Source of the DNA: Saprospiraceae bacterium
GTDB lineage: Bacteria > Bacteroidota > Bacteroidia > Chitinophagales > Saprospiraceae
Length of the DNA stretch: 64,000 nucleotides
Assembly (NCBI GenBank): GCA_019187225.1
Contig: JABAQQ010000028.1
Coordinates: 1-64,000, forward strand
Direction: 5' to 3'
Shown: piece after piece, positions 7,384 through 34,202 of the stretch
Numbering within the stretch: the first letter of the stretch is position 1
Layout: each line of letters opens with the position of its first letter
Notes under the pieces: generated by a model
What the model saw: only the letters and a program-made list of their open reading frames with translations
What the model was told of the DNA's origin: nothing
Database searches by the model: none
Position numbers and translations under genes: made by a program

Positions 7384-7572
7384 AGACGGTAGACGGTGGA
7401 CGGTGGACGGTAGACGGTGGACGGTGGACGGTAGACGGTAGACGGTAGACGGTGGACGGTAGACGGTGGACGGTAGACGGTAGACGGTGGACGGTAGACG
7501 GTAGACGGTGGACGGTGGACGGTAGACGGTGGACGGTGGACGGTGGACGGTGGACGGTGGACGGTAGACGGT
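7384..7572. repeat. Perfect 27-unit heptamer array RGACGGT (family A, copy 1)
   Basis: Twenty-seven uninterrupted 7 bp units, all AGACGGT or GGACGGT. No other substitution occurs in 189 bp; only the first base varies. The array ends 3 bp from the start codon of the POT gene and would form its mRNA leader. It is the inverted partner of the array at 7647-7716. Confidence 0.97.
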
Positions 7573-7646
7573 GGATGGCTGACAATGACAATGCGTGGTA
7601 AAAGTATGATTGAGGTAGTTGCCAGCTAATAATCTTTGATTGTAGG

Positions 7647-7716
7647 CCGTCCACCGTCTACCGTCCACCGTCCACCGTCCACCGTCCACCGTCCACCGTC
7701 TACCGTCTACCGTCTG
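7647..7716. repeat. Inverted heptamer array ACCGTCY (family A, copy 2)
   Basis: Ten units of CCGTCCA/CCGTCTA (last unit CCGTCTG), the reverse complement of copy 1, separated from it by about 75 bp. A transcript crossing both could form a stem of up to about 70 bp. Confidence 0.95.
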
Positions 7717-8330: not shown

Positions 8331-8436
8331 GATTTTTGATTTCGGATTGCGGATTTCGGATTTACAGATGCGCTGGAGTGAAAGCACCGGCATAACGAAC
8401 CGGCCCTCGGCAATCCGAAATCCGCAATCAAAAATC
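8328..8436. repeat. GATTKCG heptamer hairpin (family G) between convergent genes
   Basis: Left arm: GATTTTT, GATTTCG, GATTGCG, GATTTCG, GATTTAC. Right arm (about 8411-8433): the reverse complement. The + gene's stop abuts the left arm and the GWxTD gene's TGA stop (8428-8430) lies inside the right arm. It may work as a two-way terminator. Confidence 0.75.
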
Positions 8437-9882
8437 CTCGAAGTATGCCCGTGCATTACGGCCCAGGTTGCGCTGAGTGCCGGTAGCGTCATGGTAATTG
8501 TCACCGTCTACATATTCGGTCGGGTTGCGGGAATAGAGGACACGTTCCCAGCGGGGATTGCTGATCTCGCCGCGTGCCGTGGAATGCAACAGAATAAAGT
8601 CCTCCCCCGCAAGGCTGGGGTTATAAAAAAGGAATTTGACGTTGTTCTGCTGCGTTTTCGGGAATTTGTAATACACCCAGATTTCATAAGGCGGCGCTCC
8701 GGGATCATCTTCCACGTGGATGAGATCGTCGGGACGGCCAAAGCGGAGATATGCGCGCCCCCGGTCGGTCTCGAAACCGTAGCGGAAACCGCTTCTGAAC
8801 CGGGTGTCCGCCGCCGCCGCCACCTCCATGAATTTTTTATAAGCCAGTTCGGGATTGTTGGGGTCTTCGCGCATAAAATGACGGAACAGGTAAAAGCGCA
8901 TGGCTTTCTGATCGCCATTTTGAAGGATGTTTTTCAGCATGTCTGTTTCCACTCCGACCGCAAGCGCTGAAATGGCGCGCAGGCTGTAGCGAAGGGTGTC
9001 TTCGCCAAAATTCTGAACGAATTGTTGGCTGACCATCTCATCCGTCAATTCATTTTCCGGAACGTTGAGGAAGGGGTTGCTGCGCTGAAAGGCAAGACTG
9101 CGGGACGTCAGCAATTCGTTGGCAGCGTTGCGGATTTCCACGGTAAGCGTATAATTGCCGCTTTCGAGTTTGTTGATGTCCATCTGCACCAGCACGGCGT
9201 CGATGGACGAAGGTTTTTTGCGCTGATTCCCAATTGAGATGAGGTTCTTAACACCGTTGCCTTTTTCCTGCTCGATGAAATAGCGCACGAGATATGTGGC
9301 GTCAGTCACGACTTTGTCGGAATGGTAAATTTCGGAATAAAAAGCCAGCAGCGCAGCGCCCTTGTCATAAAAATTAAACGGCAGAGGTTCAAGGAAATAG
9401 CCGTTTTTGGTGAAGGGGTTGTCCGAATTGTCGGGCCGGAAACTGCGCAGCAACTGTACCTCCGACAGATATATCGTATTGCCGACATCCACTTTCAGGG
9501 GTGTTTTGAACACGTCCCTGTTTTCCGGATCGTGCACATCCTGAAAGGTGATCTCCAGCGTGTAATCGCCGTTGGAAAGCGACATACGTTTGACATCGAG
9601 CAATGCCCGGGGCGATTCTACGAGCGGACTGTTGAGCAGGTATTTTTCATAATTCACGATGGTTTCACCCTGTTTTATCAGGATCAGGGTTTCCACACTC
9701 GCCTGCAGGTGGGTGCTGTCGGCGCGTTTGAAGGTGACCGATGCGGCGGCGATCTCGATGTTGATTTCGAGATAGGGTTTTTCCGGGGTGGCATATACGG
9801 CATAAGAGACGCCTGCGTCGAGCGCGCGGCCCGTCCACGGCATCAGCAGCCCTAAAGCGAAAAACAGATGTTTCGTTTTCAT
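8428..9882 (-). CDS. GWxTD domain-containing secreted protein
   Basis: A 484-residue protein, start at 9882 (MKTKHLFFALGLLMPWTGRA signal peptide). The middle part is beta-rich, with FQDVHDPENRDVFKTPL and FYSEIYHSDK segments. The C-terminal third has the GWxTD-type pattern: RYGFETDRGRAYLRFGRPDD, then YEIWVYYKFPKT and a final FLFYNPSLAGEDFILLHST. GWxTD proteins are common in Bacteroidota and Acidobacteria; their function is unsettled. It lies 60 bp downstream of the ion-channel fusion on the same strand, so the two are probably co-transcribed. The stop codon sits in a repeat hairpin. Confidence 0.85.
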   Translation of the reverse strand: MKTKHLFFALGLLMPWTGRALDAGVSYAVYATPEKPYLEINIEIAAASVTFKRADSTHLQASVETLILIKQGETIVNYEKYLLNSPLVESPRALLDVKRMSLSNGDYTLEITFQDVHDPENRDVFKTPLKVDVGNTIYLSEVQLLRSFRPDNSDNPFTKNGYFLEPLPFNFYDKGAALLAFYSEIYHSDKVVTDATYLVRYFIEQEKGNGVKNLISIGNQRKKPSSIDAVLVQMDINKLESGNYTLTVEIRNAANELLTSRSLAFQRSNPFLNVPENELTDEMVSQQFVQNFGEDTLRYSLRAISALAVGVETDMLKNILQNGDQKAMRFYLFRHFMREDPNNPELAYKKFMEVAAAADTRFRSGFRYGFETDRGRAYLRFGRPDDLIHVEDDPGAPPYEIWVYYKFPKTQQNNVKFLFYNPSLAGEDFILLHSTARGEISNPRWERVLYSRNPTEYVDGDNYHDATGTQRNLGRNARAYFEDF

Positions 9883-9942
9883 AGCAGCAGTGTGAAAAGG
9901 TGAGTTGGGCAAATTTCGCACAAATATTGTTCAGTTTCTTTT

Positions 9943-12096
9943 TTATTGCTTGAAAACTAAGTAAAACACCATCAACAACAGGATCAGCAGTAAATACGGC
10001 AGCCAGAACTTGCCGCTGAGCCGGAAGATGCTTCGTTTGCCTCCACTGGCAACCGTTCTGCTTCCCGTTTTTTTCCTGTCTATATAAGTAACGTAAATGA
10101 AACAGAAGAAGTTGATTCCCAGGGTCATCATCAGAAAAATATAGGCGAGGTTCATCGAATCCGTCGCCGGCGATATCTGCACAAGGTTGATGGAGTACGC
10201 TACCGTGGCGAGGAACGAGGTGATGATCAGTTCGCCCACTTCCTCGAAACTGGCTTTGTAGAAGAACAGGATAAAGATGGGCAACGCGCTGAACATCAGG
10301 AACGGCAACACGATCAGGATGATCGCACCCCAGGGCTCCCGGCTCACCCGCAGATGCACATTCAGGGTTTTGTATTTTTCAAGGTATTGGGCGCTGTCTC
10401 TCGAGTCGAGTGTGACTTTGTCGGGCGATCCGAGCGCGTTGGACACGTTGTTGTCGAGCGTAACGTAGTAGGCCTCCGTATTCCAGTCGTTCATTTGAAA
10501 ATCGGCGATCTTGTTTTTCAACTGGAGCCGGCTGTAGTCGAAACTGATCTTGATGTTGTTGCTCGAACTGAGGGCCTCGATGGGGATCCTGATCTCATGG
10601 CGGTCAAAAGGAAAATCGAAAGAATTGAAGTCGCCCAGGAATTGTCCGCTGATGCGGTAGAGCCGCAACACATTGTTGCTGGTGTCGCGTTCTTCCGCCA
10701 CCTTGTTGCGCGATTCGGGGGAATTGAGCGTGGCAAAGTCAATGTAACCTTCTTTTTCGATGTACCGGGAGTCTACGATAACCCAATACAGCAGGTTGCA
10801 GTTGAAGGTATTTTTCCGGATGTCAACGTCGTTGATGTCTACGATATCAATGCCTACGTGCAGGTTGGGGATGGGTTCGCCAGCCGTGTTGACCTGCGTG
10901 GGATAACTGCGGGTGCGGCCGCTCTGGATGCGGTTGAAAGTAGGTTCCCGTTTAAGGATAAGGGTGCTGTCGAATTCATACAACTCATTGAAAATCGTTA
11001 CTTTGCGGTCGATCAGTTTTTGGAAATACCGGACGAGAGCGCCCCGTTGCGTTTTATCCGCGCGGAGCGCCGTTTCAAAAATATTCATCGCATCGTAGCA
11101 ACGCAACAGGCTGTTGTCGGCGGTTCTGACCCGGAAGAATTTTTTGGGAAATTGTTTTTCGATGCGTTCCTTCAAGTGGTATACCTCCTCAGGCAAAACC
11201 TCTTCGACAGTCTCGTAACGAAGGATGGTGTGACCTTTTTCCTTGGTCAGAGCTTGCAATTCCGGGTCTTTGAGATTGATGGCCCCAGAAATGCCGATGA
11301 TGGTTTTGGGTCGTATCTCCCCCCGCCTGGCCTCCTGCAACGCGCGGACGACCAGATTGCCGTAGGCGCTGTGCAGGTTGAGCAGGATAAGCTCCTGATT
11401 GGTCGAGGCCAGCGCCCGGCGTATCTGCAGAATGACGCCGGGCGTGTCCTGCGGAGGCACCTGGTTGCTGACCAATGCCCGCTGCCTGAGTTTCAGCAGC
11501 GTATCACAGGGCAGTTTGTATTGTCTGAACACCTTTTCAAACTGCTGGTGCAGCAGGTAGTCGTTTTCCGTGATGAGACCAACGGAAGGGGCTTTAATCA
11601 CTTTCTGGATGAAATTGACGAGGTAGAAAGGCTGCGGATCGTTGGGTTCCAGAAAAATGGCGTTGTTGCCGAAGTCGAGGCTGTTGAAATCCGCGGTGAG
11701 GGAAATGACCGGCAGCCGGTCGCGCACGAGCGAATCTACCCGGCGGAAATAACGCCCCCACGTGTTGTCTACCACGAGCACGATGCTGCTGTCGGCGGCA
11801 ATGCTACGGTAAATGGCCTGCATCGTGTCTGGCTTGAAGTCGCACTGGAAAACTTTCAACCGATACTCCGCGGGATAACGCGTGGGTTTCGTCACTGCAT
11901 TGATGCGGCGCAGGTAATCTTCCAGCGCGAGAATATGCAGCGAATCGGAGTAATTGTTGCGCTTTGCCTTGACGGTATCCTGAAAATTAAAACCAACAAA
12001 AGCAATGTATTGCACCGGGCGGTTGAAAGCCGCTTTTTGGCAGGCAAACCAGGTGACGAATCCAAAAACAGCGAGGGCGAATATGATTTTTTGCAT
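9943..12096 (-). CDS. Pentameric ligand-gated ion channel fused to a periplasmic-binding-protein domain
   Basis: A 717-residue protein. Residues 1-19 are a signal or lipoprotein-like segment (WFAC19). Residues of about 26-375 resemble a type 1 periplasmic binding domain: IAFVGFNF, VLVVDNTWGR, LPVISLTADFNS, SVGLITENDY, KTIIGISGAI. From about 411 a Cys-loop receptor ligand domain follows: LHVGIDIVDINDVDI, W438 in YWVIVDSR, and the hallmark loop FPFDRH at 495-500 with no flanking cysteines, as in prokaryotic members. REP at 586-588 leads into four membrane helices at about 589-612, 618-641, 648-672 and 697-717. The protein should be an inner-membrane channel gated through its periplasmic modules. 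The ligand is unknown. A GWxTD gene follows in the same direction. Confidence 0.85.
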   Translation of the reverse strand: MQKIIFALAVFGFVTWFACQKAAFNRPVQYIAFVGFNFQDTVKAKRNNYSDSLHILALEDYLRRINAVTKPTRYPAEYRLKVFQCDFKPDTMQAIYRSIAADSSIVLVVDNTWGRYFRRVDSLVRDRLPVISLTADFNSLDFGNNAIFLEPNDPQPFYLVNFIQKVIKAPSVGLITENDYLLHQQFEKVFRQYKLPCDTLLKLRQRALVSNQVPPQDTPGVILQIRRALASTNQELILLNLHSAYGNLVVRALQEARRGEIRPKTIIGISGAINLKDPELQALTKEKGHTILRYETVEEVLPEEVYHLKERIEKQFPKKFFRVRTADNSLLRCYDAMNIFETALRADKTQRGALVRYFQKLIDRKVTIFNELYEFDSTLILKREPTFNRIQSGRTRSYPTQVNTAGEPIPNLHVGIDIVDINDVDIRKNTFNCNLLYWVIVDSRYIEKEGYIDFATLNSPESRNKVAEERDTSNNVLRLYRISGQFLGDFNSFDFPFDRHEIRIPIEALSSSNNIKISFDYSRLQLKNKIADFQMNDWNTEAYYVTLDNNVSNALGSPDKVTLDSRDSAQYLEKYKTLNVHLRVSREPWGAIILIVLPFLMFSALPIFILFFYKASFEEVGELIITSFLATVAYSINLVQISPATDSMNLAYIFLMMTLGINFFCFIYVTYIDRKKTGSRTVASGGKRSIFRLSGKFWLPYLLLILLLMVFYLVFKQ

Positions 12097-12168
12097 GACG
12101 GGTTTATAAGTTGATTACTTCGAGTACCACATGTCAAAGGTAAATAAACTTTTGCTCTGAAAACCTCC

Positions 12169-12228: not shown

Positions 12229-13215
12229 ATGAATAAAATGATCGCCCGCTTTCCCGAACAACTCGGCGAAGCGCTCGCATTGGCCGAAAAGATCAGCCTG
12301 AACAAACACACCGCGCCGTTTCGCGCTGTTTTTATCTCCGGACTCGGCGGCAGCGGCATCGGCGGGGGCTTCGTACAAGACTTCCTGCGCACGTCGTGCA
12401 AACTTCCCGTCGTTGTCAGCAAAGGTTACCATGCCCCGGCCTGGATCAACAAACACACGCTCGCCATCTGCTCTTCCTACAGCGGCAATACGGAAGAAAC
12501 GATCAGTACTTTCGAGCAACTGCTCGGCACCGGCGCGAAGATCATCTGCATCGCTTCCGGCGGCAAGCTGATTGATTTGGCTAAAAAACACGGCCTCGAT
12601 CATGTGCAGTTGCCCGGCGGTTGGAGCAGCCCCCGCGCTTGCCTCGGCTACTCGGTGGTAGCGCAGTTGGGCGTGCTCCGGGCGGCTAAACTCATCCCCG
12701 GTAAAATGCTGACCGCCGTAAAAACAGCCCAAAAACTGCTCGTCAAAGACGACGCCGACATTCAGAAAAAGGCAAAAAAAATCGCCGGATTTCTTGCCGA
12801 CAAAACGCCCGTCATCTACGCGCCCGACCACATCGAATCGGTAGCGGTGCGCTGGCGGCAACAGATCAACGAAAACGCCAAAATGCTCTGCTGGCACCAC
12901 GTCGTGCCCGAAATGAACCACAACGAACTGGTGGGCTGGCGCAACAACCGCCCCGAACTTGCGGTCGTGTGGCTCCGCAACCGCGACGATTTCGAGCGCA
13001 CTGCCACGCGTATCAACATCAACAAAGAAATCGTGGAACATTTCACGGGCACATCCATCGAAGTGTGGTCGAAAGGCAAATCATTGGTTGAAAAGGCTTT
13101 TTATCTCGTTCATCTGGGCGACTGGGTTTCTTACTACCTCGCCGAGATCCGAGACGTAGACCCGGTGGAGATCAAGGTGATTGACTATTTGAAAGGGGAA
13201 TTGGCGAAGGTGTAG
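12229..13215 (+). CDS. Bifunctional phosphoglucose/phosphomannose isomerase family protein
   Basis: A 328-residue sugar isomerase with a SIS fold: FISGLGGSGIGGGF (about 34-47) binds the sugar phosphate, followed by CSSYSGNTEETIST (about 83-96), then the C-terminal family domain with HVVPEMNHNELVGW and a late HLGDWVSYYLAEIRDVDPVEIKVIDYLK. Members interconvert glucose-6-P or mannose-6-P with fructose-6-P. It lies 211 bp upstream of a canonical Pgi gene on the same strand, so two G6P isomerase types are neighbours. Its TAG stop runs straight into degenerate heptamer repeats. Confidence 0.85.
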   Translation: MNKMIARFPEQLGEALALAEKISLNKHTAPFRAVFISGLGGSGIGGGFVQDFLRTSCKLPVVVSKGYHAPAWINKHTLAICSSYSGNTEETISTFEQLLGTGAKIICIASGGKLIDLAKKHGLDHVQLPGGWSSPRACLGYSVVAQLGVLRAAKLIPGKMLTAVKTAQKLLVKDDADIQKKAKKIAGFLADKTPVIYAPDHIESVAVRWRQQINENAKMLCWHHVVPEMNHNELVGWRNNRPELAVVWLRNRDDFERTATRININKEIVEHFTGTSIEVWSKGKSLVEKAFYLVHLGDWVSYYLAEIRDVDPVEIKVIDYLKGELAKV

Positions 13216-13216
13216 T

Positions 13217-13278
13217 GACGGTGGACGGCTTGCCCGCCGAAGTTTTGACGAAGGCGGGGTGGACGGTGGACCGTGGAT
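13217..13278. repeat. Degenerate heptamer copy (family A, copy 3)
   Basis: TGACGGTGGACGG at the left and GGTGGACGGTGGACCGTGGATG at the right, with about 30 bp of non-repeat sequence (CTTGCCCGCCGAAGTTTTGA and on) between. It looks like a decaying array and starts right after the stop codon of the isomerase gene. Confidence 0.65.
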
Positions 13279-13317
13279 GTAAAAATATCGCTTCATGTTT
13301 ATGATTTTCAAAGAATT

Positions 13318-13425
13318 AAGTAGCCGGACATTGGATTTTAGACATTGGACATCAGACTAACTGGTTGGTTTCCAAGGTCTAATAGTCCAACGTCCAATGT
13401 CAATCTATTTTGTCCACATACTTAC
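13318..13425. repeat. About 100 bp inverted-repeat element (family B, copy 1)
   Basis: Starts AAGTAGCCGGACATTGG, includes GACATTGGACATCAGACTAA and TGGTTGGTTTCCAAGGTC, and ends CGTCCAATGTC...TTTTGTCCACATACTT. The ends are complementary (AAGTA/TACTT, GGACATTGG/CCAATGTC). The pgi ATG at 13427 follows at once. Related copies are at 24762, 34048 and 44773. Confidence 0.85.
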
Positions 13426-13426
13426 A

Positions 13427-14725
13427 ATGATACAATTCGATATTTCCGCTGCTGAAAAATTCGTTTCCGGCCACGAACTCGCGTCCATCGGGCCGCAGGT
13501 TGATACCGCCGCTAAATTGCTGGAAAGCCGTACCGGCACCGGCAACGACTTCCTCGGATGGCTCGATCTGCCGCTGAAATACGACCGCACGGAGTTCAAA
13601 CGCATCAAAGCCGCTGCCAGGAAGATCCAAAAACAAAGCGAAGTATTGGTCGTCATCGGCATCGGCGGGTCATACTTAGGCGCGAAGGCGGCCATCGAAT
13701 TTTGCCAACACAGTTTCTACAACAACCTGCCGAAAAAGAAGCGGCGACTGCCTGAGGTCTATTTCGCCGGAACCAATATCTCCGGCACTTATCTCACCCA
13801 TCTGCTGGAAGTGATCGGCGACCGCGATTTTTCGGTAAACGTCATTTCCAAATCCGGCACTACAACCGAACCCGCCATCGCCTTCCGCATTTTCAGGCAA
13901 AAATTAGAAGAAAAATACGGCAAAGCCGGCGCCCGCGAACGCATCTACGCGACGACGGACCAATCGCGCGGGGCGCTGAAAACGCTGGCCACCCGGGAAG
14001 GATACGAAACCTTCGTCGTACCCGACAACGTGGGCGGGCGATTTTCCGTTTTGACCGCTGTTGGGTTGTTGCCTATTGCGGTGGCCGGCATTGATGTGGA
14101 TGCGTTGATGCGCGGCGCTGCAGACGGACTGAAGTTGTACAAAAAACCTTTTCCCGAAAACGACTGCTATCGCTACGCAGCCGTTCGCAACATCCTGCAC
14201 CGCAAGGGAAAAGACATTGAATTGCTGGTGAACTATGAGCCGCGCTGCCACTATATCGCCGAGTGGTGGAAACAATTATATGGGGAGAGCGAAGGCAAGG
14301 ACGGCAAAGGCATTTTTCCGGCGTCGGTGGATTTTACCTCCGATTTGCACTCGATGGGGCAGTACATTCAGGATGGCCGGCGTTCGCTGTTCGAGACAGT
14401 TCTGGAAATCGAAAAACCCGAAGCGGACCTTATCCTGTTCAAAACCGACGATGATCTCGACGGACTGAATTATTTAGCCGGAAAAACGCTCGATTTCATC
14501 AACAAAAAGGCCGCCGAGGGAACCCGCATGGCACATACGGACGGCGGCGTGCCCAATCTTGCGATCCGCATCCCGGAAGCGACACCTTATTACCTCGGCC
14601 AGTTGTTTTTCTTTTTTGAAAAAGCCTGTGCCGTCAGCGGTTATCTGCTGGGCGTTAATCCGTTCGACCAGCCGGGGGTGGAAGCGTATAAAAAGAATAT
14701 GTTCGCGCTGCTGGGGAAATCGTAA
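13427..14725 (+). CDS. pgi: Glucose-6-phosphate isomerase
   Basis: A 432-residue classical PGI interconverting glucose-6-P and fructose-6-P in glycolysis. Motifs: [18 protein letters not shown] (about 75-92, sugar-phosphate loop), [16 protein letters not shown], the [10 protein letters not shown] segment, [18 protein letters not shown], the catalytic-region [20 protein letters not shown] and a C-terminal [14 protein letters not shown]. The start at 13427 ([12 protein letters not shown]) is chosen because the ten residues before it are encoded by the family B repeat. The PorP/SprF gene follows after 22 bp, but the two are not functionally linked. Confidence 0.93.
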
Positions 14726-14747
14726 AAATATATTTGTATTTTTCGCC

Positions 14748-15881
14748 ATGAAAATCATTGGAAACACACTCGCCATATTTGCGCTTTGGCTCTTTTCGGG
14801 CGAAACAGCCACAAGCCAGGACCTTCAATTTTCTCAGTTTTTTCAACTGCCGGCGGCGACCAATCCCGCTTATGTTTCAGTGCCTTCAGGCACGCGATTG
14901 TCGGCCGGATACAGGCGGCAGTGGGGCGCCGTTCAGTCCGGTTTGACCGGACTAATGGCCGATGCCGTTATGCGTGTGGCACAGACAGGCAAACCCGGCG
15001 GTGCGGTGCACAGTGGCTTGGGCTTGGGCGTACAGGTCATGCAGGCCCACGAGCCGTTTTTCGGCTACAAAGTGCAGGAGGCATCGGGACAAGTGGGCGC
15101 CTATGTGGGCAATTCCGAATCCGCCACCTTTCACCTGGGGCTTTGCGGCACCTGGGGACAACGTTTTATTGATTTTGACCGCATGGTTTTTTCCGGCCAA
15201 CTCGACCCGGTTTTTGGCATCAGCAATCCCGGCGCATTCGTGCCGCCGGCCGACGACCGCGTGACGACTTTTACCTGGGGAGGAGGACTTGCTGCCCGGG
15301 GGCAGTTGCCGGTAAAAGATATGCAATTGCCTTTCGGCGCCGGCCTCGCGCTGCGCCAATGGACGGGCAGCCGCAACGTGTCTTTTGCAGGAGCGCCGGG
15401 CGCTTTGCCCTTGGCACGCCTGCTGACTGCGCATCTCACGGTATCCGTTCCACTTACCGATAAATACCGCGATGTAACCGCATGGTACCTCACTCCGCTG
15501 ATGCGTTACGATTGGGCGGGCGCGCAGGATGGCAAAAAGCCTTTGCAGCGTGGCATGGCCGGAATGCTGGCTCAACACGACAGGGTGATGTTCGGCGGCA
15601 TATGGTCGTTCAATCGAAGACCGGAGGCCGGGCAAAACACCACCGCGCTCGTGTTGGTGCTGGGCGGCAATGCCGGGTTGGGAGGTAAGGCGGCCTTGAC
15701 CGTTACTTACAATTATGAAGCGCCCCTGACGGGTTTGGGCATCGGCGCCACCAACGGGGCGCATGAAATCACGGTGGTGTTCGATTTGCCGGGAAGCCCT
15801 GTATTTAAAGAAAAAAGCAAACGCGGCCGCACCGATTGTTTTCATTTTGCGGGTAAAGGTTTCAGAGGATACCTGAATTGA
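14748..15881 (+). CDS. Type IX secretion system PorP/SprF family membrane protein
   Basis: A 377-residue protein with a signal peptide (MKIIGNTLAIFALWLFSGETATS) followed by the family opening QDLQFSQFFQLPAATNPAYV. The remainder is a beta-barrel with alternating glycine-rich strands and a C-terminal EITVVFDLPGSPVF. PorP/SprF proteins sit in the outer membrane, anchoring the T9SS C-terminal signal of partner cargo. The PKD adhesin gene immediately downstream (43 bp) carries a gliding-type C-terminal domain, the classical pairing of a type B cargo with its SprF-like partner. Confidence 0.85.
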   Translation: MKIIGNTLAIFALWLFSGETATSQDLQFSQFFQLPAATNPAYVSVPSGTRLSAGYRRQWGAVQSGLTGLMADAVMRVAQTGKPGGAVHSGLGLGVQVMQAHEPFFGYKVQEASGQVGAYVGNSESATFHLGLCGTWGQRFIDFDRMVFSGQLDPVFGISNPGAFVPPADDRVTTFTWGGGLAARGQLPVKDMQLPFGAGLALRQWTGSRNVSFAGAPGALPLARLLTAHLTVSVPLTDKYRDVTAWYLTPLMRYDWAGAQDGKKPLQRGMAGMLAQHDRVMFGGIWSFNRRPEAGQNTTALVLVLGGNAGLGGKAALTVTYNYEAPLTGLGIGATNGAHEITVVFDLPGSPVFKEKSKRGRTDCFHFAGKGFRGYLN

Positions 15882-15923
15882 ATTATTAAAAATATTTTAT
15901 GATTGCAATAAACCTTAATTCTT

Positions 15924-18900
15924 ATGCGCAGTATATATTTTCCTTATCCGATCTATAAATCTGTATTCATTGTCGCCGGTATTTTTCATATATCGTTATT
16001 ACAGGCACAAACTTCAGCGTGGTGCGACGTGAATCCCTGGCCAATTCTGGCAGGCTGCGGTAGCTTGGGCGTGGGATTGCAGTTCACCGGCGACGATGTG
16101 TTCTGCAATGGAGAAACGGTCACCATCCTGAACACGGTACCCTCCGATGCGGATTCGACACTGGTGTGTTGGGGCGACGGGTCGTTCACTGCGGTGGCGG
16201 GTACTCCAATGACTTTTTCACACGTGTATGCTTTTCCACCCGATACCTGTCCGGGCGAATGCATTACCTTTATCATCCGGCTGGCGGTCATCAAACATTG
16301 TGTCCCGGATAAAATGAGTTTTAAATGGATCGCAACGCCCGTTCAGGTTTGTTTTCCGCCCATCGCGCAATTCGCCGTACCACAAGCCGTTTGTACCGAC
16401 GATCTCGTTTCCATCAATAACCAGAGTTGTGAAAATTCTATCAATGCTACATATTCCTGGTCAATGCCGGGAGCCAATCCGAATACTTCCACTGCTGAAA
16501 ACCCTGTTGGCGTATCATATCCCACCCAAGGCAACTATACCATTTCTCTCACAGTGTCGAATGCCGAATGTGGCTCCGATACATATTCGCTGCCTATTTC
16601 TGTGGGTCCGCCTGCCACTGCCGTAGCCGATTTGCCGGATACACTGTGCGTCAATGACACCATCATGCCCGTTAATAGCTCGCTCAATGCCGCGGGCTTA
16701 ACGCCGTATTTCTGGTCCTTCCCCACCAATCCCGGCAGCGGCGCCAAAATAGTACCTCCTTCCACCGCTTTCGACAAAGAGCCGAAAATGACCTTTACCA
16801 AACCCGGAACTTATGTGGTGCGGCTGGCTGTCACGGGTTGTCACAGCCCGGTGTGGACGCAAACGGTTGTCGTCATCGGGCCACCCGTCGTTGCATTGAG
16901 CGGCATCCCAACCGATCCGCTTTGCGGCGATACTACCTTCACACCCGTACTGACGCTTTCCGGTGATCCGGCCGACGCTGTGCACTGGAGTATCACGGGA
17001 GGAACGCCTGCCATGTTTGACGGCCCTGCGCAATCCATCACCTTTTCCGGAACAGGCACGAAAACCGTGCTGGTCAGTGGAGAAAACGAATGCGGATTCA
17101 ACACTGTGGCCGATACTTTCGCTATCAATCCGCCGGCGTCAGCTGCCATTTCCATTTCCGCCGACACAATTTGTGCGCCGGGGCAAACGGTCGTTATTTC
17201 AAACGTGATGCAAAATGCGACAGGCATTGCCTGGACGGTTACCCCGCCGGCAGGCGTGACCCCTCCCTCTTCCAATGCCCCCGAGCCGGTTTTTTCATTT
17301 TCCGCCGAAAACACGTATCATATTCATGCTGACGTGCTGGGGTGCGGAAACCCGCAGTGGGATACCACTGTCGTCGCGCGGCTTTCCCCCGTACCTGTGC
17401 CCGGCACAGTGGACGACGGGTGCGTTCCGGTCACGCTCGACCCCAATGATGTGATCACACTGACCGGCGGTACGCCCGATTTTGTTATCTGGGTGTTTAC
17501 GGGCGGCGACTCGCTGGGTTTTATCGGGACAAATCCCGGCCCGGTAACCTTTTCAGGCGCCGGAACAAAAAGCATTTCGGTTACGGTGGGAAACGATTGC
17601 GACACCGCATCGGCCAACGTGTCGTTCCAAATATTCGACCTGACGGCGCTGGGCGTCGACACCGTAGCGCCACTGTGCAGTTCTGATCCGCCCATTGTGC
17701 TGCACGGCTATCCGGCAGGTGGCAAATGGGTCGGCCCGGGTATTTCGCAGGACACTATTCTGAATCCGGCTGCGGCGCCTCTGAATCAAACCACCGTATA
17801 TACTTATCAATATGGAACAGGAAATTGTGCCGTAGAAGTGGGGTTGCCGGTTCTGGTACAGGGAACGGACAGTGTATACGCCGGTCCGGATCTTGTTGCT
17901 TGTACCAATTCCCCCTTATTAACGCTGACGGGCAGTCCCCCCAACGGTTCTTTTTCGGAAACGAACAACTATGTCACACCGGGAGGAGTGTTCAATCCTT
18001 CGGCGGTACCTGCAAACAACTACTACATCGTTTATACTTATCTTGACCCGACCAGCCAATGTCCCAATTACGATACCGTTTCTATTGCGGTATCGGGTAT
18101 TCCTTCGGCTTCGCTGGATTCGATCGGCAACTGGTGTGCCGGAATTCCCCTCCAGTTGGGGCCTTTCGCCGGCGGCGGCGGAACGGGTACTTCCTGCGCA
18201 TGGAATTTTGGCGACGCTCAAACTTCCAATACCTGCGATGCCGAACATACCTGGCAAATCCCCGGCACGTACAACCTCACCCTGATTTTGGAAAACCAAG
18301 CGGACTGCCGCGACACAGCTACCGGCCAAATCCAAATCATCACGGCACCAGTGGCGCAAATTGCACCCGCATTTACCGAAGGCTGCGGTGATACGCTGTC
18401 GGTGTTGTTCAGCAACCTTGCCACCTGGAACGATTATACTGCCTGGACCTGGAATTACGGTGACGGTAGCCCTGTCGAGACAGGTTTTGATCCTGTGGCG
18501 CATCCTTTCGCTCAGGGAGAAACTGATACGATTTACACGATCGTGCAAACGTCGTCGAACGCCTGCGGCTCCGCAACGGCCACGGCTCAGGTACTGGTAC
18601 ACCCGCGACCTATTGTGCGGTTTGGCGCTTCACAGAGCACCATTTGCTCCTCTGATTCGGTTTCATTCAACAATTATTCCACCGGCCAACCCGATACTTT
18701 TAAATGGTATGTCAATGGCGCATTGATCTCTACCGATCCGCAATTGCCGCCGCAATACTTCACCACCGGCACACAGGATTCCTTGTATATCATCACTTTA
18801 GTTGCGGAAAATGCCTGTGGTACGGATACTTTGCGCGATTCTGTGCTCGTCAAACCTAACCCGGTGAAGGCCTTTTTCAATTTGCCCAAACCGGCTATTT

Positions 18901-20654
18901 GCCAGAACAGCACCCTTAAACTGACTGATCTGAGCACCAACGGCCTGAACGTAACCTGGAACTTTGGCGACGGAAATACCGCCACGGGCGACACAGTATG
19001 GCATACTTTCACGACTCCCGGCGATTTTGTAATTTACGAGTACGTGAACAATGGTTGCGGTTATGACACCGCTTTTCAGTCGCTTACGGTATGGCCCGCA
19101 CCGACGGCCTCCTTTGTCCATGCCCCATATGTGTGTCGTTCCGACACGATTTTTTTTGACAATACTTCTTTGGGTATCGCCGGGGCATATTGGAATTTCG
19201 GCGACGGCACCATTGATTCGACCGTACTTTCTCCCGGTCATGTGTATGCACAGGCGGGTACATACACGGTGACATTAACCGTTTTTTCCGAAACCCATCT
19301 TTGCCCTGATACGGTATATTCTTCCTTAACCGTCAGAGAATTGCCCGTTCCGGCGGTGTCATTGCCCGGTAAAGAAGGCTGTCAGCCGTTCCTGTTCACC
19401 GGGCAAGGGACTACGCCGGGCGCGAGCACCTACAAATGGGACTTTGGCGACGGCTCAACCGGCGTCGGCATGTCATTCTCGCATCTGTACTATACCGACA
19501 GCGTGTACACACTCGGCGTGACGGTGACGGATAATTTTAATTGCAGCGCCGACACAACAATTTTTCCCATTAACGTGCGTCCGAAACCTGTCGCCGGATT
19601 TTCAGTCGTGCAAACCAACCTCTGCGAAACGCCTGCCCAGTTAATTTTTCAAAACAACAGCACAGACGCCGACGCATACCTGTGGAGTTTTCAAAACGGC
19701 CAGTCGTCCGACCAGGTAAACCCTGCCATTACGGTCAACAACGGCGGACCATTTACCGTGACGCTCCTGGCCACAAACCAGTGGATGTGCCGCGATACTT
19801 TGACCGAAGCGCTTACCATATACGCCCAACCGGTTGCCGGCTTTTCGCTGCCGGACTCGGTCGTTTGTATGGACGATTGGGTGTATTTTGATAACAATTC
19901 ACTGAATGTCAATCATTATTCATGGGACTTTGGCGATGGTACGACATCAGCGGAGTTTGCTCCCGCACACCTGTACGGACAGCCCGGTGTTTATACCGTA
20001 ACCTTACAGGTATCAGCGGATTCGGTGTGTTTCGACAGCCTCCGACGTGTGGCTTATGTGCGGGTACTACCTTCTCCCACCGCCGGCTTCACTGCCGAAC
20101 CAGTGACGGATACCACTGTTGTGCCGAATGGAATATATCGCTTTTTCGACACGTCATCGCCCGATGTCGTGGGTTGGGATTGGGATTTTGGCGACGGACA
20201 GGGTTTTTCTGCCGAACAAAATCCGGTGTACCGTTTCGATACCGTCGGGGTAAAAATCGTGACGCTCATCGTCACCAATGCGCTGAATTGCCCAGATACC
20301 GCCTCGCTGACGCTCGAGCCCGATTTTTTCGGAAGTTTGTTCATCCCCAATGCGCTTACGCCCGATTATGGAACAGACGGCGAGCGGCTCTTTCTCCCTG
20401 CCGGTTCCAATTTAGCGGAATATGAAATCAGTATTTTTGCTCCCAATGGCCAGTGTGTGTTTCACAGTACCCTGCTCGACCGGGGGCATCCTGCCGAAAG
20501 TTGGGATGGCACCTACAATGGTGTGCCCCTGCCGCAAGGTGTGTATTTCTGGAAGGTCCGGGCCCGCTTCAGCAACAACCGGGTGTGGCAAGGCATGGTT
20601 TATAAAGAGGGCGAGCAACCGGTACAAGAAGGAAAAGTATGGTTGGGGCGATAG
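15924..20654 (+). CDS. Giant PKD-repeat surface protein with type B T9SS sorting domain
   Basis: A 1576-residue secreted adhesin. After a signal peptide (ending SLLQAQ) come many PKD/Ig-like domains, with typical WDFGDG-type strands at many places (TWNFGDGNTATGD, YWNFGDGTIDS, KWDFGDGSTGVG, SWDFGDGTTSAE, DWDFGDGQGF). The last 110 residues form the gliding-motility type C-terminal domain: LFIPNALTPDYGTDG, EISIFAPNGQCVFHS, ESWDGTYNGVPLPQGVYFWKVRA. It is exported by the T9SS and anchored at the surface, probably with the PorP/SprF partner upstream. The stop TAG (20652-20654) forms the first bases of a heptamer repeat. Ligand unknown. Confidence 0.88.
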   Translation: MRSIYFPYPIYKSVFIVAGIFHISLLQAQTSAWCDVNPWPILAGCGSLGVGLQFTGDDVFCNGETVTILNTVPSDADSTLVCWGDGSFTAVAGTPMTFSHVYAFPPDTCPGECITFIIRLAVIKHCVPDKMSFKWIATPVQVCFPPIAQFAVPQAVCTDDLVSINNQSCENSINATYSWSMPGANPNTSTAENPVGVSYPTQGNYTISLTVSNAECGSDTYSLPISVGPPATAVADLPDTLCVNDTIMPVNSSLNAAGLTPYFWSFPTNPGSGAKIVPPSTAFDKEPKMTFTKPGTYVVRLAVTGCHSPVWTQTVVVIGPPVVALSGIPTDPLCGDTTFTPVLTLSGDPADAVHWSITGGTPAMFDGPAQSITFSGTGTKTVLVSGENECGFNTVADTFAINPPASAAISISADTICAPGQTVVISNVMQNATGIAWTVTPPAGVTPPSSNAPEPVFSFSAENTYHIHADVLGCGNPQWDTTVVARLSPVPVPGTVDDGCVPVTLDPNDVITLTGGTPDFVIWVFTGGDSLGFIGTNPGPVTFSGAGTKSISVTVGNDCDTASANVSFQIFDLTALGVDTVAPLCSSDPPIVLHGYPAGGKWVGPGISQDTILNPAAAPLNQTTVYTYQYGTGNCAVEVGLPVLVQGTDSVYAGPDLVACTNSPLLTLTGSPPNGSFSETNNYVTPGGVFNPSAVPANNYYIVYTYLDPTSQCPNYDTVSIAVSGIPSASLDSIGNWCAGIPLQLGPFAGGGGTGTSCAWNFGDAQTSNTCDAEHTWQIPGTYNLTLILENQADCRDTATGQIQIITAPVAQIAPAFTEGCGDTLSVLFSNLATWNDYTAWTWNYGDGSPVETGFDPVAHPFAQGETDTIYTIVQTSSNACGSATATAQVLVHPRPIVRFGASQSTICSSDSVSFNNYSTGQPDTFKWYVNGALISTDPQLPPQYFTTGTQDSLYIITLVAENACGTDTLRDSVLVKPNPVKAFFNLPKPAICQNSTLKLTDLSTNGLNVTWNFGDGNTATGDTVWHTFTTPGDFVIYEYVNNGCGYDTAFQSLTVWPAPTASFVHAPYVCRSDTIFFDNTSLGIAGAYWNFGDGTIDSTVLSPGHVYAQAGTYTVTLTVFSETHLCPDTVYSSLTVRELPVPAVSLPGKEGCQPFLFTGQGTTPGASTYKWDFGDGSTGVGMSFSHLYYTDSVYTLGVTVTDNFNCSADTTIFPINVRPKPVAGFSVVQTNLCETPAQLIFQNNSTDADAYLWSFQNGQSSDQVNPAITVNNGGPFTVTLLATNQWMCRDTLTEALTIYAQPVAGFSLPDSVVCMDDWVYFDNNSLNVNHYSWDFGDGTTSAEFAPAHLYGQPGVYTVTLQVSADSVCFDSLRRVAYVRVLPSPTAGFTAEPVTDTTVVPNGIYRFFDTSSPDVVGWDWDFGDGQGFSAEQNPVYRFDTVGVKIVTLIVTNALNCPDTASLTLEPDFFGSLFIPNALTPDYGTDGERLFLPAGSNLAEYEISIFAPNGQCVFHSTLLDRGHPAESWDGTYNGVPLPQGVYFWKVRARFSNNRVWQGMVYKEGEQPVQEGKVWLGR

Positions 20655-20742
20655 ACGGCAGACGGCTTCCAATGGACAGAAAAAGTTTATCTCCGTTTTT
20701 CCGTCCACCGTCTACCGTCTACCGTCCACCGTCTACCGTCCA
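20651..20742. repeat. Heptamer hairpin between convergent genes (family A, copy 4)
   Basis: Left arm: two degenerate units (ATAGACGGC, AGACGGC) containing the upstream gene's TAG stop. Right arm 20701-20742: six perfect CCGTCYA units. The thiolase TAA stop (20746-20748) begins 3 bp after the last unit. Confidence 0.9.
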
Positions 20743-20745
20743 CCG

Positions 20746-21924
20746 TTACACCCGCTCGATCACGATCGCCGTCGCTCCGCCGCCGCCGTTGCAAATGGCC
20801 GCGAGACCGAGTTTGCCGTTTTTCTGTTGCAGCACGTTGTTGAGCGTGGTTACGATGCGCGCGCCCGAAGCGCCCAGCGGGTGGCCGATGGCTACCGCGC
20901 CGCCGAACACATTCGTCTGACTGTGCGGCACTTCCATTACTTTTTCAAAGGCCAGCGCGACGACGGAGAAGGCTTCGTTCACTTCGAAGAAGTCAATATC
21001 GTTTTTCGTCAGTCCGGCCATTTTCAGTGCTTTCGGCGCTGCGACGGTGGGCGATGTAGTGAACCACTCCGGTTCCTGTTCCGCGTCGGCGAAGCCGCGG
21101 ATTTTGGCGATGGGTTTGAGGCCGAACCGTTTTACCGCTTCTTCGCTGGCCAGAATGAGCGCCGTAGCGCCGTCGTTAATATTGCTGGCATTGGCGGCCG
21201 TCACCGTGCCGTCGGGTGAAAAAGAGGGACGCAGGGTGGGAATTTTATCGTATATCACCTTTTTATAATCCTCGTCTTCAACGACTTGCAGCGGATCGCC
21301 TTTTTTCTGTGGAATAACGACGGGGATGATCTCCGATTTAAAAAGGCCGCTTTCCGTGGCCGCTGCGGCGCGCTTGTAGGAGTCAATGGCGTGCGCATCC
21401 TGCTCTTCCCGGCTGATGTTGTATTTCGCTGCCGTCGCGTCGCCGCACACGCCCATCGCTTTCTGGTTGTATACGTCGGTCAGCCCGTCTTTGGCGAGGC
21501 CGTCCACGAGTTCGCCGTTGCCGAATTTGTAGCCCCAGCGCGCATTGGGCAGGTAGTAAGGTATTTGCGACATATTCTCCATGCCCCCTGCCACGACGAT
21601 GTCGTTGATGCCCAGCATGATGCTTTGGGCGCCGAAAGTGATCGCCTTCATACCCGAAGCGCATACTTTGTTGATGGTCGTGCACGGAATATTGTCGGGC
21701 AAGCCCGCGAAACGCGCCGCCTGCCGCGCCGGCGCCTGGCCGAGGTTCGCGCTGACGACGTTGCCCATCAGGACTTCCTTAACTTCAGCAGCCTGTATAC
21801 CGGCTTTTTCCAAAGCGCCTTTGATGGCGGTTGCTCCCAATTGCGTCGCGGAAATGCCTGCCAGCACCCCGCCGAAACTTCCAATGGGGGTGCGCACGGC
21901 AGAGACGATAAATACTTCTTTCAT
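20746..21924 (-). CDS. Acetyl-CoA C-acetyltransferase (thiolase)
   Basis: A 392-residue thiolase. Start 21924 (MKEVFIVSAVRTPIGSFGG); the in-frame ATG five codons earlier is less likely. Catalytic residues are in place: nucleophilic Cys in INKVCASGMKAI (about 88), GGMENMSQIPYY, NINDGATALILASEEA, His in the NEAFSVVAL region and GHPLGASGAR, and the final CNGGGGATAIVIE. It condenses two acetyl-CoA to acetoacetyl-CoA, or the reverse, in the cytoplasm. It is monocistronic, divergent from the rhodanese gene; the end abuts a heptamer array. Confidence 0.93.
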   Translation of the reverse strand: MKEVFIVSAVRTPIGSFGGVLAGISATQLGATAIKGALEKAGIQAAEVKEVLMGNVVSANLGQAPARQAARFAGLPDNIPCTTINKVCASGMKAITFGAQSIMLGINDIVVAGGMENMSQIPYYLPNARWGYKFGNGELVDGLAKDGLTDVYNQKAMGVCGDATAAKYNISREEQDAHAIDSYKRAAAATESGLFKSEIIPVVIPQKKGDPLQVVEDEDYKKVIYDKIPTLRPSFSPDGTVTAANASNINDGATALILASEEAVKRFGLKPIAKIRGFADAEQEPEWFTTSPTVAAPKALKMAGLTKNDIDFFEVNEAFSVVALAFEKVMEVPHSQTNVFGGAVAIGHPLGASGARIVTTLNNVLQQKNGKLGLAAICNGGGGATAIVIERV

Positions 21925-26791: not shown

Positions 26792-27003
26792 GGACATTGG
26801 ACGGGTAGACGTTTGACATTGGACGGGTAGACGTTTGACATTGGACAGGTAGACGTTGGACATTGGACGGGTAGACGTTTGACATTGGACGGGTAGACGT
26901 TGGACATTGGACGGGTAGACGTTTGACATTGGACGGGTAGACGTTGGACATTGGACGGGTAGACGTTGGACATTGGACAGGTAGACGTTTGACATTGGAC
27001 GGG
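26792..27003. repeat. 22 bp tandem array (family C, left arm)
   Basis: Nine full units KGACATTGGACRGGTAGACGTT plus a 14 bp partial unit. Only the first base (G/T) and the twelfth (G/A) vary. The array shares GACATTGGAC with family B and GTAGACG with family A. Confidence 0.95.
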
Positions 27004-27096
27004 AGTGTTCAAAAATGCAGGTTATTTAAAAATTAAACATCTGAAAATCAATGTTTTAGTTTGATATTGACACACTTTTTTGAACATTCCCCATTG

Positions 27097-27256
27097 GACG
27101 TCTGGACAAACGCACCTCAGTCTAACGTCCAATGTCCATCCGTCCAACGTCCAATGTCCATCCGTCCAATGTCCAATGTCCACCCGTCCAACGTCCAATG
27201 TCCACCCGTCTAACGTCCATCCGTCCAACGTCCATCCGTCCAACGTCCAATGTCAA
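27097..27256. repeat. Inverted 22 bp-type array (family C, right arm)
   Basis: Imperfect units of about 11-22 bp built from CCAACGTCCAATGTCC and ATCCGTCC, the reverse complement of the left arm. The 93 bp between the arms carries its own inverted repeat (GTGTTCAAAAA / TTTTTTGAACAT) around an AT-rich centre. Confidence 0.9.
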
Positions 27257-28780: not shown

Positions 28781-29830
28781 TCATTCCACCATCAGATTGC
28801 ACCCCCGCATTTCCGCCACGTCGAGCCGCCCCAATACCTCGAAACGGCCATCTGCATATACCTTGCCTACATCCTCCGTCTGGATAAAACTGCAGGTGTC
28901 CAGATTGGCCAGATCGATGATGTTCAATACACCCGTGCGGCCCGGCGCTACGGGGCAAAAAGGGTCGTTGATCTCGGTTGCCATTACCCGCATGGTCGGT
29001 GCGGGAGTGAACAATGAACCGCCTTGTGCATAGGCCTGGGAGAACAATTCCGTCATGCCGTACTCCGAGTGGATCGCGGTCAGTTGAAAAGCGGAACAAA
29101 GCATTTCGTGCAATTCCGGGCGGGTTATCTCGCGGCGACGGCCTTTCATGCCGCCCGTCTCCATGACGGTGATGCCGGACAAATCCATCGGAAAACGTTC
29201 GGCAAAATCCAGAAGCGCGAAGCTCACGCCGAGCAACAACGTTTTATAACCATCGGACCGGCACGATAAAAGCACGTCGCGAAGGCGCTGGAAATCATCC
29301 AGGAAAAAGCCGCTTTCAGGGTATCGGGAAAGACGGATAAAATGATCGGCCATGGCTACGAGCGACGAACCGCCGCGTTCCAGGTAAGAAGGCAACAAGG
29401 CCAGAATCCGCCATTCCGAAGGGTCGCCGTAAAAGTACGCGAACCCGCGACGGGCATTTTCCACATAAAATTCCAAATCGCACACGAGATGGCGCGAAGG
29501 CGTTTGGCCGGTGGTGGCGCTGCTGGTGAACACGGTTTGCGGCGTCCACGAACCGGTCGTCACTTTTTGCGTTTTGAAAAACCGGATGGGCAGGAACGGT
29601 GGGCGGTAGACGGTGGACGGTAGACGGTAGACGGTGGACGGTAGACGGTAGACGGTAGACGGTGGACGGTGGATAGCAGAAGGGGTACGACCCAACAATT
29701 CGAGGTATCTGGCATACAGCGGATTGTGAGCGGCCTGATAGCGAAATACCGCTTCTGCGGCCTCTTCGAAGCGATCGCCGTCCAAATCTGCCAGCAGTGG
29801 CAATAAATCCGCCCGTTCCGGTGTTTGCAT
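28781..29830 (-). CDS. LuxE-like acyl-protein synthetase family protein with in-frame repeat insertion
   Basis: A 349-residue protein of the LuxE/acyl-adenylate family. Motifs: NPLYARYLELLG near residue 35, FLPIRFFKTQKVTTG, the nucleotide loop SSATTGQTPSRH, SLVAMADHFI, GGMKGRRREITRPELHE, SEYGMTELFSQAY and a C-terminal ILRVMATE-type region. Such proteins activate a fatty acid as acyl-AMP or transfer it to a cysteine. No LuxC/D is nearby. Start at 29830. Between LLGRTPSA and PFLPIRFF the chain carries about 28 residues of STVYRLP-type repeat, encoded by heptamers at 29594-29677. In relatives this linker is short, so the array looks inserted. Confidence 0.8.
   Translation of the reverse strand: MQTPERADLLPLLADLDGDRFEEAAEAVFRYQAAHNPLYARYLELLGRTPSAIHRPPSTVYRLPSTVYRLPSTVYRPPFLPIRFFKTQKVTTGSWTPQTVFTSSATTGQTPSRHLVCDLEFYVENARRGFAYFYGDPSEWRILALLPSYLERGGSSLVAMADHFIRLSRYPESGFFLDDFQRLRDVLLSCRSDGYKTLLLGVSFALLDFAERFPMDLSGITVMETGGMKGRRREITRPELHEMLCSAFQLTAIHSEYGMTELFSQAYAQGGSLFTPAPTMRVMATEINDPFCPVAPGRTGVLNIIDLANLDTCSFIQTEDVGKVYADGRFEVLGRLDVAEMRGCNLMVE
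29594..29677. repeat. Heptamer array inside a coding sequence (family A, copy 5)
   Basis: Twelve consecutive 7 bp positions: two degenerate units on the left (GAACGGT, GGGCGGT), nine perfect RGACGGT and a final GGATAGC. Total 84 bp, divisible by three, so the reading frame of the host gene is kept. Confidence 0.93.
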
Positions 29831-32855: not shown

Positions 32856-33860
32856 ATGATGAAAAATAACGGAATAACGATATTAGCAATAGAATCCTCC
32901 TGCGACGATACCTCCGCGGCTATTATACGCGACGGGGTGGTCTTGTCCAATTGCATCGCCAACCAGGAAGCCCACCGGCAATACGGCGGCGTGGTGCCGG
33001 AGGTCGCTTCGCGGGCGCATCAGGCGAATATGATACCGGTGGTGGAGCTGGCACTGAAAAAAGCGGGGATCGCCAAAACGGATATAAATGCAGTGGCTTT
33101 TACCCGCGGCCCGGGTTTGATGGGTTCATTGATCGTCGGTACGTCGTTTGCCAAAGCCTTCGCATTGAGCCGCAACCTGCCGCTGATCGAGGTCAACCAT
33201 ATGCAGGCGCATGTGCTGGCACATTTTGCCGAAGACTCCAAGCCGAAATTCCCTTTCCTGTGCCTCACTGTGAGCGGCGGTCATACGCAAATTGTGCTGG
33301 TGCGCGATTATCTCGACATGGAGATCATCGGCGAAACGCTCGACGACGCGGCAGGCGAAGCTTTCGATAAATCGGGCAAATTACTCGGGCTCGGTTATCC
33401 CGCCGGGCCGCTGATCGACAAACTCGCCCGCGAAGGACAGGCGCATTTCCCTTTTCCGGAACCGGCGGTCCCGGATCTGAATTTCAGTTTCAGCGGGCTC
33501 AAAACCTCGATTTTGTACTTTTTAAAAAAAGAGGTCGCTGAAAATCAAAATTTTATTGCGGAGAATCTGGCGGATTTGTGCGCCTCCGTCCAGACAAGCA
33601 TTGTCACCATATTGCTGAAAAAACTCCGCAAAGCCGCCCGCCAGACGGGAATCCGGGAAATTGCCATTGCCGGAGGCGTCAGCGCCAATTCGGGTCTGCG
33701 CAAAGCGTTGGAAGAGATGGGAAAACAAGAAGGCTGGGCGACTTACATCCCGGCATTCCAATATTGCACCGACAACGCGGGCATGATCGGTGTGACCGCT
33801 TATTACAAATACCTCGCAGGCGAGTTTTGCGGGCAGGATGCGGCGCCGTATGCGCGGTAG
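32856..33860 (+). CDS. tsaD: tRNA N6-adenosine threonylcarbamoyltransferase TsaD
   Basis: A 334-residue ASKHA-fold enzyme that transfers the threonylcarbamoyl group to A37 of ANN-decoding tRNAs. Motifs: ILAIESSCDDTSAAII at the start, VVPEVASRAHQ, TRGPGLMGSLIVG, metal-binding HMQAHVLAHF, LTVSGGHTQIVLV and AGGVSANSGLR. The start is 32856 (MMKNNGITIL), or the next Met; the 80 codons upstream in frame are not protein-like. The TAG stop (33858-33860) overlaps the first heptamer of a repeat array. Confidence 0.95.
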   Translation: MMKNNGITILAIESSCDDTSAAIIRDGVVLSNCIANQEAHRQYGGVVPEVASRAHQANMIPVVELALKKAGIAKTDINAVAFTRGPGLMGSLIVGTSFAKAFALSRNLPLIEVNHMQAHVLAHFAEDSKPKFPFLCLTVSGGHTQIVLVRDYLDMEIIGETLDDAAGEAFDKSGKLLGLGYPAGPLIDKLAREGQAHFPFPEPAVPDLNFSFSGLKTSILYFLKKEVAENQNFIAENLADLCASVQTSIVTILLKKLRKAARQTGIREIAIAGGVSANSGLRKALEEMGKQEGWATYIPAFQYCTDNAGMIGVTAYYKYLAGEFCGQDAAPYAR

Positions 33861-34005
33861 AGGGTGGACGGTAGAGGGTGGACGGTAGACGGTGGACGGT
33901 AGACGGTGGACGGTGGACGGTAGACGGTGGACGGTGGACGGTGGACGGTGGACGGTGGACGGTGGACGGTAGACGGTGGACGGTGGACGGTGGACGGTAG
34001 AGGGT
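33859..34005. repeat. Perfect 21-unit heptamer array (family A, copy 6)
   Basis: 21 units of RGACGGT; units 1, 3 and 21 are the variant AGAGGGT, the rest AGACGGT or GGACGGT. The first unit overlaps the tsaD stop. Confidence 0.97.
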
Positions 34006-34047
34006 GTTCAAATTTCTGTGCCAATCTTCTTCTGCAAATTCTAATAT

Positions 34048-34137
34048 AAGTAGCCGGACATTGGATTTTTGACAATGGGCATTTGACTAAATGATTGGTT
34101 TCCAATGTCCAATGTCTAATGTCCAATGTCCAATATC
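34048..34137. repeat. Inverted-repeat element (family B, copy 3) between heptamer arms
   Basis: AAGTAGCCGGACATTGG start, TGGGCATTTGACTAAATGAT core, then CCAATGTC-type units (ATGTCCA four times). The end found in other copies (TTTTGTCCAC..TACTT) is missing; instead the inverted heptamer arm begins. Confidence 0.85.
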
Positions 34138-34139
34138 CA

Positions 34140-34202
34140 CCGTCTACCGTCTACCGTCTACCGTCCACCGTCTACCGTCCACCGTCTACCGTCTACCGTC
34201 CA
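34140..34202. repeat. Inverted heptamer array overlapping cutA 3' end (family A, copy 7)
   Basis: Nine perfect CCGTCYA units, inverse to copy 6. The cutA stop (34186-34188, TAG on the minus strand) is made from a heptamer. Confidence 0.96.

Follow-up and report, generated by a model that had tools for sequence, protein, structure and literature searches.

Organization of the gene

The stretch analyzed here, 64,000 nucleotides of contig JABAQQ010000028.1 (positions 1 to 64,000, hereafter the window) from a Saprospiraceae bacterium (assembly GCA_019187225.1), contains a gene in which a type I periplasmic-binding-protein (PBP-I, or Venus-flytrap) domain is fused to a pentameric ligand-gated ion channel (pLGIC) module. 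An intact minus-strand open reading frame (ORF) with an ATG start and no internal stops fills 9943..12096 exactly and encodes 717 amino acids. These coordinates had been given exactly in an earlier note on this DNA, which left the strand unstated; it is the minus strand, and the same frame read on the plus strand meets stops close to its start.

The frame is open throughout in 12 full-length and two partial relatives that are 45–77% identical to the window protein, which is beyond chance and confirms the observed fusion ORF as real. Together these proteins form the 15 rows of alignment A2; L013 and L026 are near-duplicates, and L027 was left out because it lies on the same contig as L013. A 586-residue plus-strand ORF (10354–12114) antisense to the channel gene was rejected as probably a shadow ORF because it is broken into shorter pieces in the relatives examined, the longest being 533 residues in L008.

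From the N terminus, and all on the minus strand, the gene encodes a signal segment delimited by conservation (residues 1–19; 12040..12096), the PBP-I domain defined by fold match (residues 25–370; 10987..12024), a linker of approximate limits that separates the two homology regions (residues 371–411; 10864..10986), a periplasmic pLGIC core domain (residues 412–587; 10336..10863) defined by hhalign comparison with stand-alone pLGICs, and four helices. The four C-terminal helices described in the earlier note appear, at low to middling confidence, in an AlphaFold2 (AF2) model as M1 (residues 588–612, with kink proline P598; 10261..10335), M2 (617–641; 10174..10248), M3 (645–677; 10066..10164) and M4 (698–716; 9949..10005), and the placement of M1 also follows from its alignment with that of GLIC, the proton-gated channel of Gloeobacter violaceus.

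The PBP-I, core and membrane domains are all under purifying selection. Rates of non-synonymous and synonymous substitution (dN/dS) were computed for eight pairs, and dS was saturated or undefined in the distant ones; the close pair L026/L013 gave values of 0.011/0.214 for the PBP-I domain, 0.002/0.154 for the core and 0.003/0.173 for the transmembrane domain (TMD), with dN far below dS. Across 12 sequences (L013 dropped), invariant positions numbered 57 of 346 in the PBP-I domain, 62 of 176 in the core and 54 of 130 in the TMD, and M2 was nearly frozen (21 of the 27 positions 617–643).

Homology of the C-terminal half to pLGICs

Eight stand-alone pLGICs were assembled as alignment A3, five (L002–L006) having been reached via weak matches of the window protein and three (L032–L034) via a PF02931 search that matched two of 395 phylum genomes, the window's own genome not among them. 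The A3 proteins are clearly pLGICs, with a PDB match at E 4.2e-37 and with PF02931 and PF02932 found in seven and four of the eight, respectively, at E ≤ 0.1. Comparison of the channel half of the fusion family (alignment A5) with A3 by hhalign gave a probability of 98.6% (E 6e-16), and the 253 aligned columns start at the first core strand and run through M3. Since similarity had guided the choice of five of the A3 members, the comparison was repeated with only the three found by PF02931 alone, which gave 95.8% (E 8.3e-9) over 243 columns. Controls were clean: the PBP half scored 0.2 and 0.1% against the two pLGIC sets, and the channel half scored 0.2% against LivJ/LivK.

Searches of the PDB pointed to the same family. 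GLIC entries occupied all of the best 60 of 71 rows returned by single-sequence phmmer (best E 0.009), and a profile of residues 400–717 matched GLIC at E 3.1e-6, with most of the score coming from M1–M4 and M2 aligning without gaps. Seven conserved pLGIC positions are listed by Jaiteh et al. (PMC4795631), whose Table 1 (2016) gives the loop proline as the only absolutely conserved residue. All seven are present in the window protein, invariant and in order: F495, P496, D498, W538, R586, P598 and P643. F495 P496 F497 D498 are invariant in the 15 rows, and W538, R586, P598 and P643 align to their GLIC counterparts.

The loop FPFDRH, which carries the [F/Y]PxD signature of pLGICs, was found at residues 495–500 (10597..10614, minus strand), as previously stated. 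The assignment to the "Cys-loop family" made at that time holds for the pLGIC module, on the strength of the profile comparison and the conserved residues, but not for the name: the cysteine pair of strict (metazoan) Cys-loop receptors is absent near residues 495–500, and the sole invariant cysteine of the core domain is C433. A loop without flanking cysteines makes this a Pro-loop receptor, for which "Cys-loop" is a misnomer.

Predicted pore-lining helix

With M2 numbered such that P643 is 23′, the 15-row alignment revealed an acidic selectivity region (10231..10245, minus strand) composed of E618 (−2′), E619 (−1′), V620 (0′), G621 (1′) and E622 (2′), followed by T626 (6′), L629 (9′), A633 (13′) and I636 (16′). 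E619, G621, E622, T626, L629, A633 and I636 are invariant in all rows, and E618 is replaced by Asp in L030 and by Gly in L031. This pattern suggests that the channel is probably cation-selective; permeability to calcium would be speculation. By contrast, in the stand-alone pLGICs an acidic 2′ residue occurs in none of eight and Arg occupies 0′ in seven of eight, as counted by eye from the M2-M3 proline.

Flytrap domain and signal segment

A fold search and the AF2 model both revealed the two-lobe α/β fold of type I periplasmic binding proteins in the N-terminal half. The fold match spans residues 25–370, in good agreement with the region of about 26–375 proposed in the earlier note, and the matches include the N-terminal domains of metabotropic glutamate (mGluR) and AMPA receptors. 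pLGIC structures were absent from the fold-match rows listed, which were filled by the PBP-I domain and so have no bearing on the channel fold. The AF2 model was built with nine sequences and is usable for the PBP half only; without an alignment, the predicted local distance difference test score (pLDDT) was 38. Profile support for a Peripla_BP domain was divided, with Peripla_BP_6 found in seven of 12 members at E ≤ 1 but the window member reaching only 25.4 bits against a cut-off of 31.7, and the Pfam scan of the whole protein gave no Peripla_BP match.

Residues invariant in the flytrap include N111-T112-W113, D136, E177-D179-Y180, H242 and Y245. Invariant residues of this half gather in loops immediately after strands of the AF2 model, which is where the ligand clefts of PBP-I proteins sit, and may line a ligand cleft.

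Among the first 24 residues, Cys19 is the only one invariant in the 12 sequences. The residue preceding it is Ala, Ser or Thr in 13 of 13 full-length rows, and position −3 relative to it is Trp, His, Gln, Tyr, Phe or Leu, with Leu in just three of the 13. The lipoprotein profile LPAM_1 matched one of 12 members, weakly (E 0.12). The segment is predicted to be a likely lipoprotein signal in which Cys19 would be the lipidated cysteine.

Proposed mechanism and alternatives

Taken together, the comparisons support both halves of the fusion, a PBP-I fold and a pLGIC module. The gene is probably that of a subunit of a homopentameric, likely cation-selective, inner-membrane Pro-loop pLGIC in which each subunit carries a periplasmic N-terminal PBP-I sensor. 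Upon export, signal peptidase II would probably cut before Cys19, which would then be lipidated. The core β-sandwich and M1–M4 would assemble as a pentamer whose pore is lined by M2, as homology with known pLGICs implies. A small solute could shut the flytrap cleft at its invariant residues; their conservation is observed, and their position in the cleft and the binding itself are conjectural. Closure might strain the linker and rotate the core, with D498-R586 coupling at the Pro-loop relaying the motion to M2. The gate at L629 (9′) would then open and cations would pass the rings formed by E622, E619 and usually E618, yielding a membrane-potential or ion signal that reports a periplasmic solute. 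We infer, as the earlier note did, that a small molecule acts on the channel through the outer domain.

Several observations weigh against this reading. The Neur_chan profiles PF02931 and PF02932, absence of which the earlier note had named as grounds for abandoning a pLGIC assignment, matched none of 14 members at E ≤ 1. This result was overridden because profile-profile comparison is more sensitive; the stand-alone relative L004 also falls below the Pfam Neur_chan cut-off (19.4 versus 26 bits), and the window protein scanned entire had no accepted match in Pfam or NCBIfam, the nearest being TIGR00860 at E 0.038, far below its cut-off. A whole-protein profile (A1) placed GLIC (E 0.041) after an unrelated repressor (E 0.039) in the PDB, and the core contributed only 7.7 bits to the alignment of residues 400–717 with GLIC. 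Structure prediction yielded the four helices but not the core β-sandwich: strands of at least three residues appeared only at 413–487, pLDDT was below 50 over most of 363–594, and the TMD model was itself middling, with ten-residue pLDDT means of 43–69 in the helices between 588 and 716. On the flytrap side, a profile of the PBP half matched two PDB entries (E 0.83 and 2.9), both of them unrelated and neither a binding protein, and comparison with Escherichia coli LivJ/LivK was not significant. Among the LivJ residues compared, which we take to contact ligand, is E249; in that non-significant alignment the corresponding position is Ser, Gln, Pro or Leu across relatives, a variability that leaves an amino-acid ligand unsupported. 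In the pore, 0′ is V620 (Ile in L031) and never basic, in a position that is basic in 79% of pLGICs (PMC4795631).

The flytrap might instead be a spacer or tether and not a gate, with the Cys19 lipid seated in the outer membrane and the pLGIC in the inner one, so that the pentamer bridges the periplasm; opening would then respond to pH, divalent ions, a ligand of the core domain or envelope stress. This arrangement is unlikely. Invariance of Cys19 alone within the signal segment (one of 24 residues), the smaller share of invariant positions in the PBP half than in the core or TMD and the presence of an MscS-type channel gene near two loci (L009 and L030) are in keeping with it, but a tether would not call for invariant residues clustered in the post-strand loops where PBP-I clefts lie, nor for purifying selection on the PBP half itself. 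A further conception, which we hold to be quite improbable, unites lipidation with sensing: five flytraps anchored in the outer membrane would sit on a periplasm-bridging inner-membrane channel for calcium or other divalent cations and convert an envelope solute into an ion signal, divalent selectivity being proposed because glutamate rings are stacked (2′, −1′ and mostly −2′) without a basic ring at 0′.

A non-conducting, pLGIC-like receptor that signals through neighboring gene products, such as a GWxTD-domain protein or an S15 peptidase, is very improbable. The GWxTD gene (8428..9879, minus strand; 483 residues when read from its ATG; matched by TIGR04514 at E 5.8e-12 and by Pfam at E 2.1e-6) is a possible operon partner that lies downstream on the same strand, as noted earlier, with a gap of 63 bases, or of 21 if translation starts at the GTG at 9921. 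In five of 15 loci (the window, L009, L029, L030 and L031, the last two being the most divergent relatives) a GWxTD gene is the next one downstream, in the same orientation, and an S15 peptidase gene is directly upstream in L009 and L030 (by Pfam) and L031 (by blastp cluster). Against signaling through these neighbors, there is no adjacency in the other 10 loci, the GWxTD gene being ∼6.5 kb downstream in two of them (L013 and L026), and M2 is the most conserved part of the protein, as expected of a working pore. It is scarcely credible that an unrelated four-helix membrane protein makes up the C-terminal half and carries its FPFD motif by chance, for the missing Neur_chan match and the marginal single-sequence and whole-protein E values are outweighed by the hhalign results with their clean controls, the seven pan-pLGIC positions in order and the gap-free M2-GLIC alignment.

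Relation to known receptors

The favored architecture, a pLGIC bearing a flytrap sensor, is not new in kind, alphaproteobacterial examples having been known for about two decades. Tasneem et al. (PMC549065) describe PBP-I/pLGIC fusions in Magnetospirillum magnetotacticum and Bradyrhizobium japonicum, for which they propose chemosensing; where that article treats Cytophaga, it gives simple and MCP-N/Cache architectures and not PBP-I. These PBP-I/ART-LGIC fusions are described with the same domain order (PBP-I, core ligand domain and four transmembrane helices) but are alphaproteobacterial, and their fusion may have an origin in common with the present one or an independent one. What is distinctive here is the divergent lineage, the acidic pore (−1′ and 2′ invariant and no basic 0′) and the probable lipid anchor. 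Jaiteh et al. (PMC4795631) state that terminal parts were dropped and architectures deferred to later work, and no report of this fusion family was found in searches of open-licence full-text literature, just one of which named Saprospiraceae.

GLIC, the closest solved structure by sequence, shares with the window protein the M2 spacing, a hydrophobic 9′ residue, the M1 and M2-M3 prolines and the pre-M1 Arg. It differs in that its solved chains are ∼317 residues long and lack a PBP domain, Thr occupies the column of E622, and 32 rather than 48 residues separate the β9 Trp from the pre-M1 Arg. Stand-alone Bacteroidota pLGICs likewise have a homologous core without a PBP domain. One of them, L004 (324 residues), is a second pLGIC of the same genome (G000 contig C12:22546-23259; L004:1414-2385). 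Animal ionotropic and metabotropic glutamate receptors also carry PBP-I N-terminal to a membrane receptor, a resemblance at the level of plan only, since their membrane parts belong to other families. DeCLIC, from Desulfofustis, is a pLGIC that likewise has a large periplasmic N-terminal accessory domain, reported as two β-rich jelly-roll lobes and not as PBP-I (PMC9897478, PMC12664993); a 2025 paper (PMC12664993) calls it the only pLGIC with a partly characterized N-terminal domain.

A flytrap domain lends itself to separate expression and ligand screening, and so to a direct search for a natural agonist, and if the glutamate-ringed pore does conduct divalent ions, it would be a natural variant for selectivity studies. 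Because curated profiles can miss pLGICs, profile-based surveys may undercount them.

Distribution of the fusion

A scan of genome contigs yielded eight loci at 56–77% identity, of which four are titled Saprospiraceae, two Bacteroidota, one uncultured Bacteroidetes and one a Thermoanaerobaculia bin (L012). The source genomes of all eight carry the gene, the copy in L014 being in two pieces at contig ends. An order-level profile search matched nine of 396 genomes, eight with a full-length gene (the window's own included) and the ninth with a weak stand-alone pLGIC; in this draw the full-length gene was present in eight of the 13 listed same-genus genomes versus none of the 383 others. A second search of the other five same-genus genomes, with all candidates scored, gave nothing in four and a stand-alone frame of 345 residues in G798. 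No further full-length copies were found among 199 family and 395 phylum genomes, for each of which the best few candidates were scored; the family, order and phylum draws overlap and, with one genome per species, represent a limited survey. Four weak matches from the phylum search were discarded as noise, being frames of 44–64 residues with stops inside. Viral contigs and plasmids contained no whole-protein relatives, and a stand-alone pLGIC query gave one weak plasmid match.

L012 is a 3664-bp contig in which the channel gene is followed by FGE-sulfatase and Gfo/Idh/MocA genes. Its channel protein is 77% identical to that of the window, and for this reason the contig is perhaps mis-binned, transfer being the other explanation.

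Gene neighborhood and other features of the window

The GWxTD gene was rejected as an obligate partner, since adjacency is confined to five of 15 loci (L027 dropped). The window GWxTD protein scores above the Pfam cut-off; those of L009, L029, L030 and L031 score below it. A POT peptide transporter gene lies near the channel gene in the window and L009 and, as judged by cluster, also in L029. The neighborhood may have a theme of peptides or amino acids, but a weak one; most loci have other neighbors.

Elsewhere in the window, positions 12229–14725 hold adjoining bact-PGI_C/SIS and PGI-family genes, both of phosphoglucose-isomerase type, and 14559–20654 (plus strand) encodes a 1576-residue protein that has PKD repeats and a CHU_C type IX secretion signal, adjoining a PorP/SprF gene. 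Short tandem arrays are numerous; those of 7-base units occur at 7385–7714, 20701–20746, 29596–29670 and 33855–34206, several of these scattered arrays using similar units (CCGTCCA, its variants or complements). At its 5′ end the POT transporter ORF overlaps the first of these, which makes the listed start of that gene doubtful. A further array, with 22-base and other units, lies at 26793–27254.
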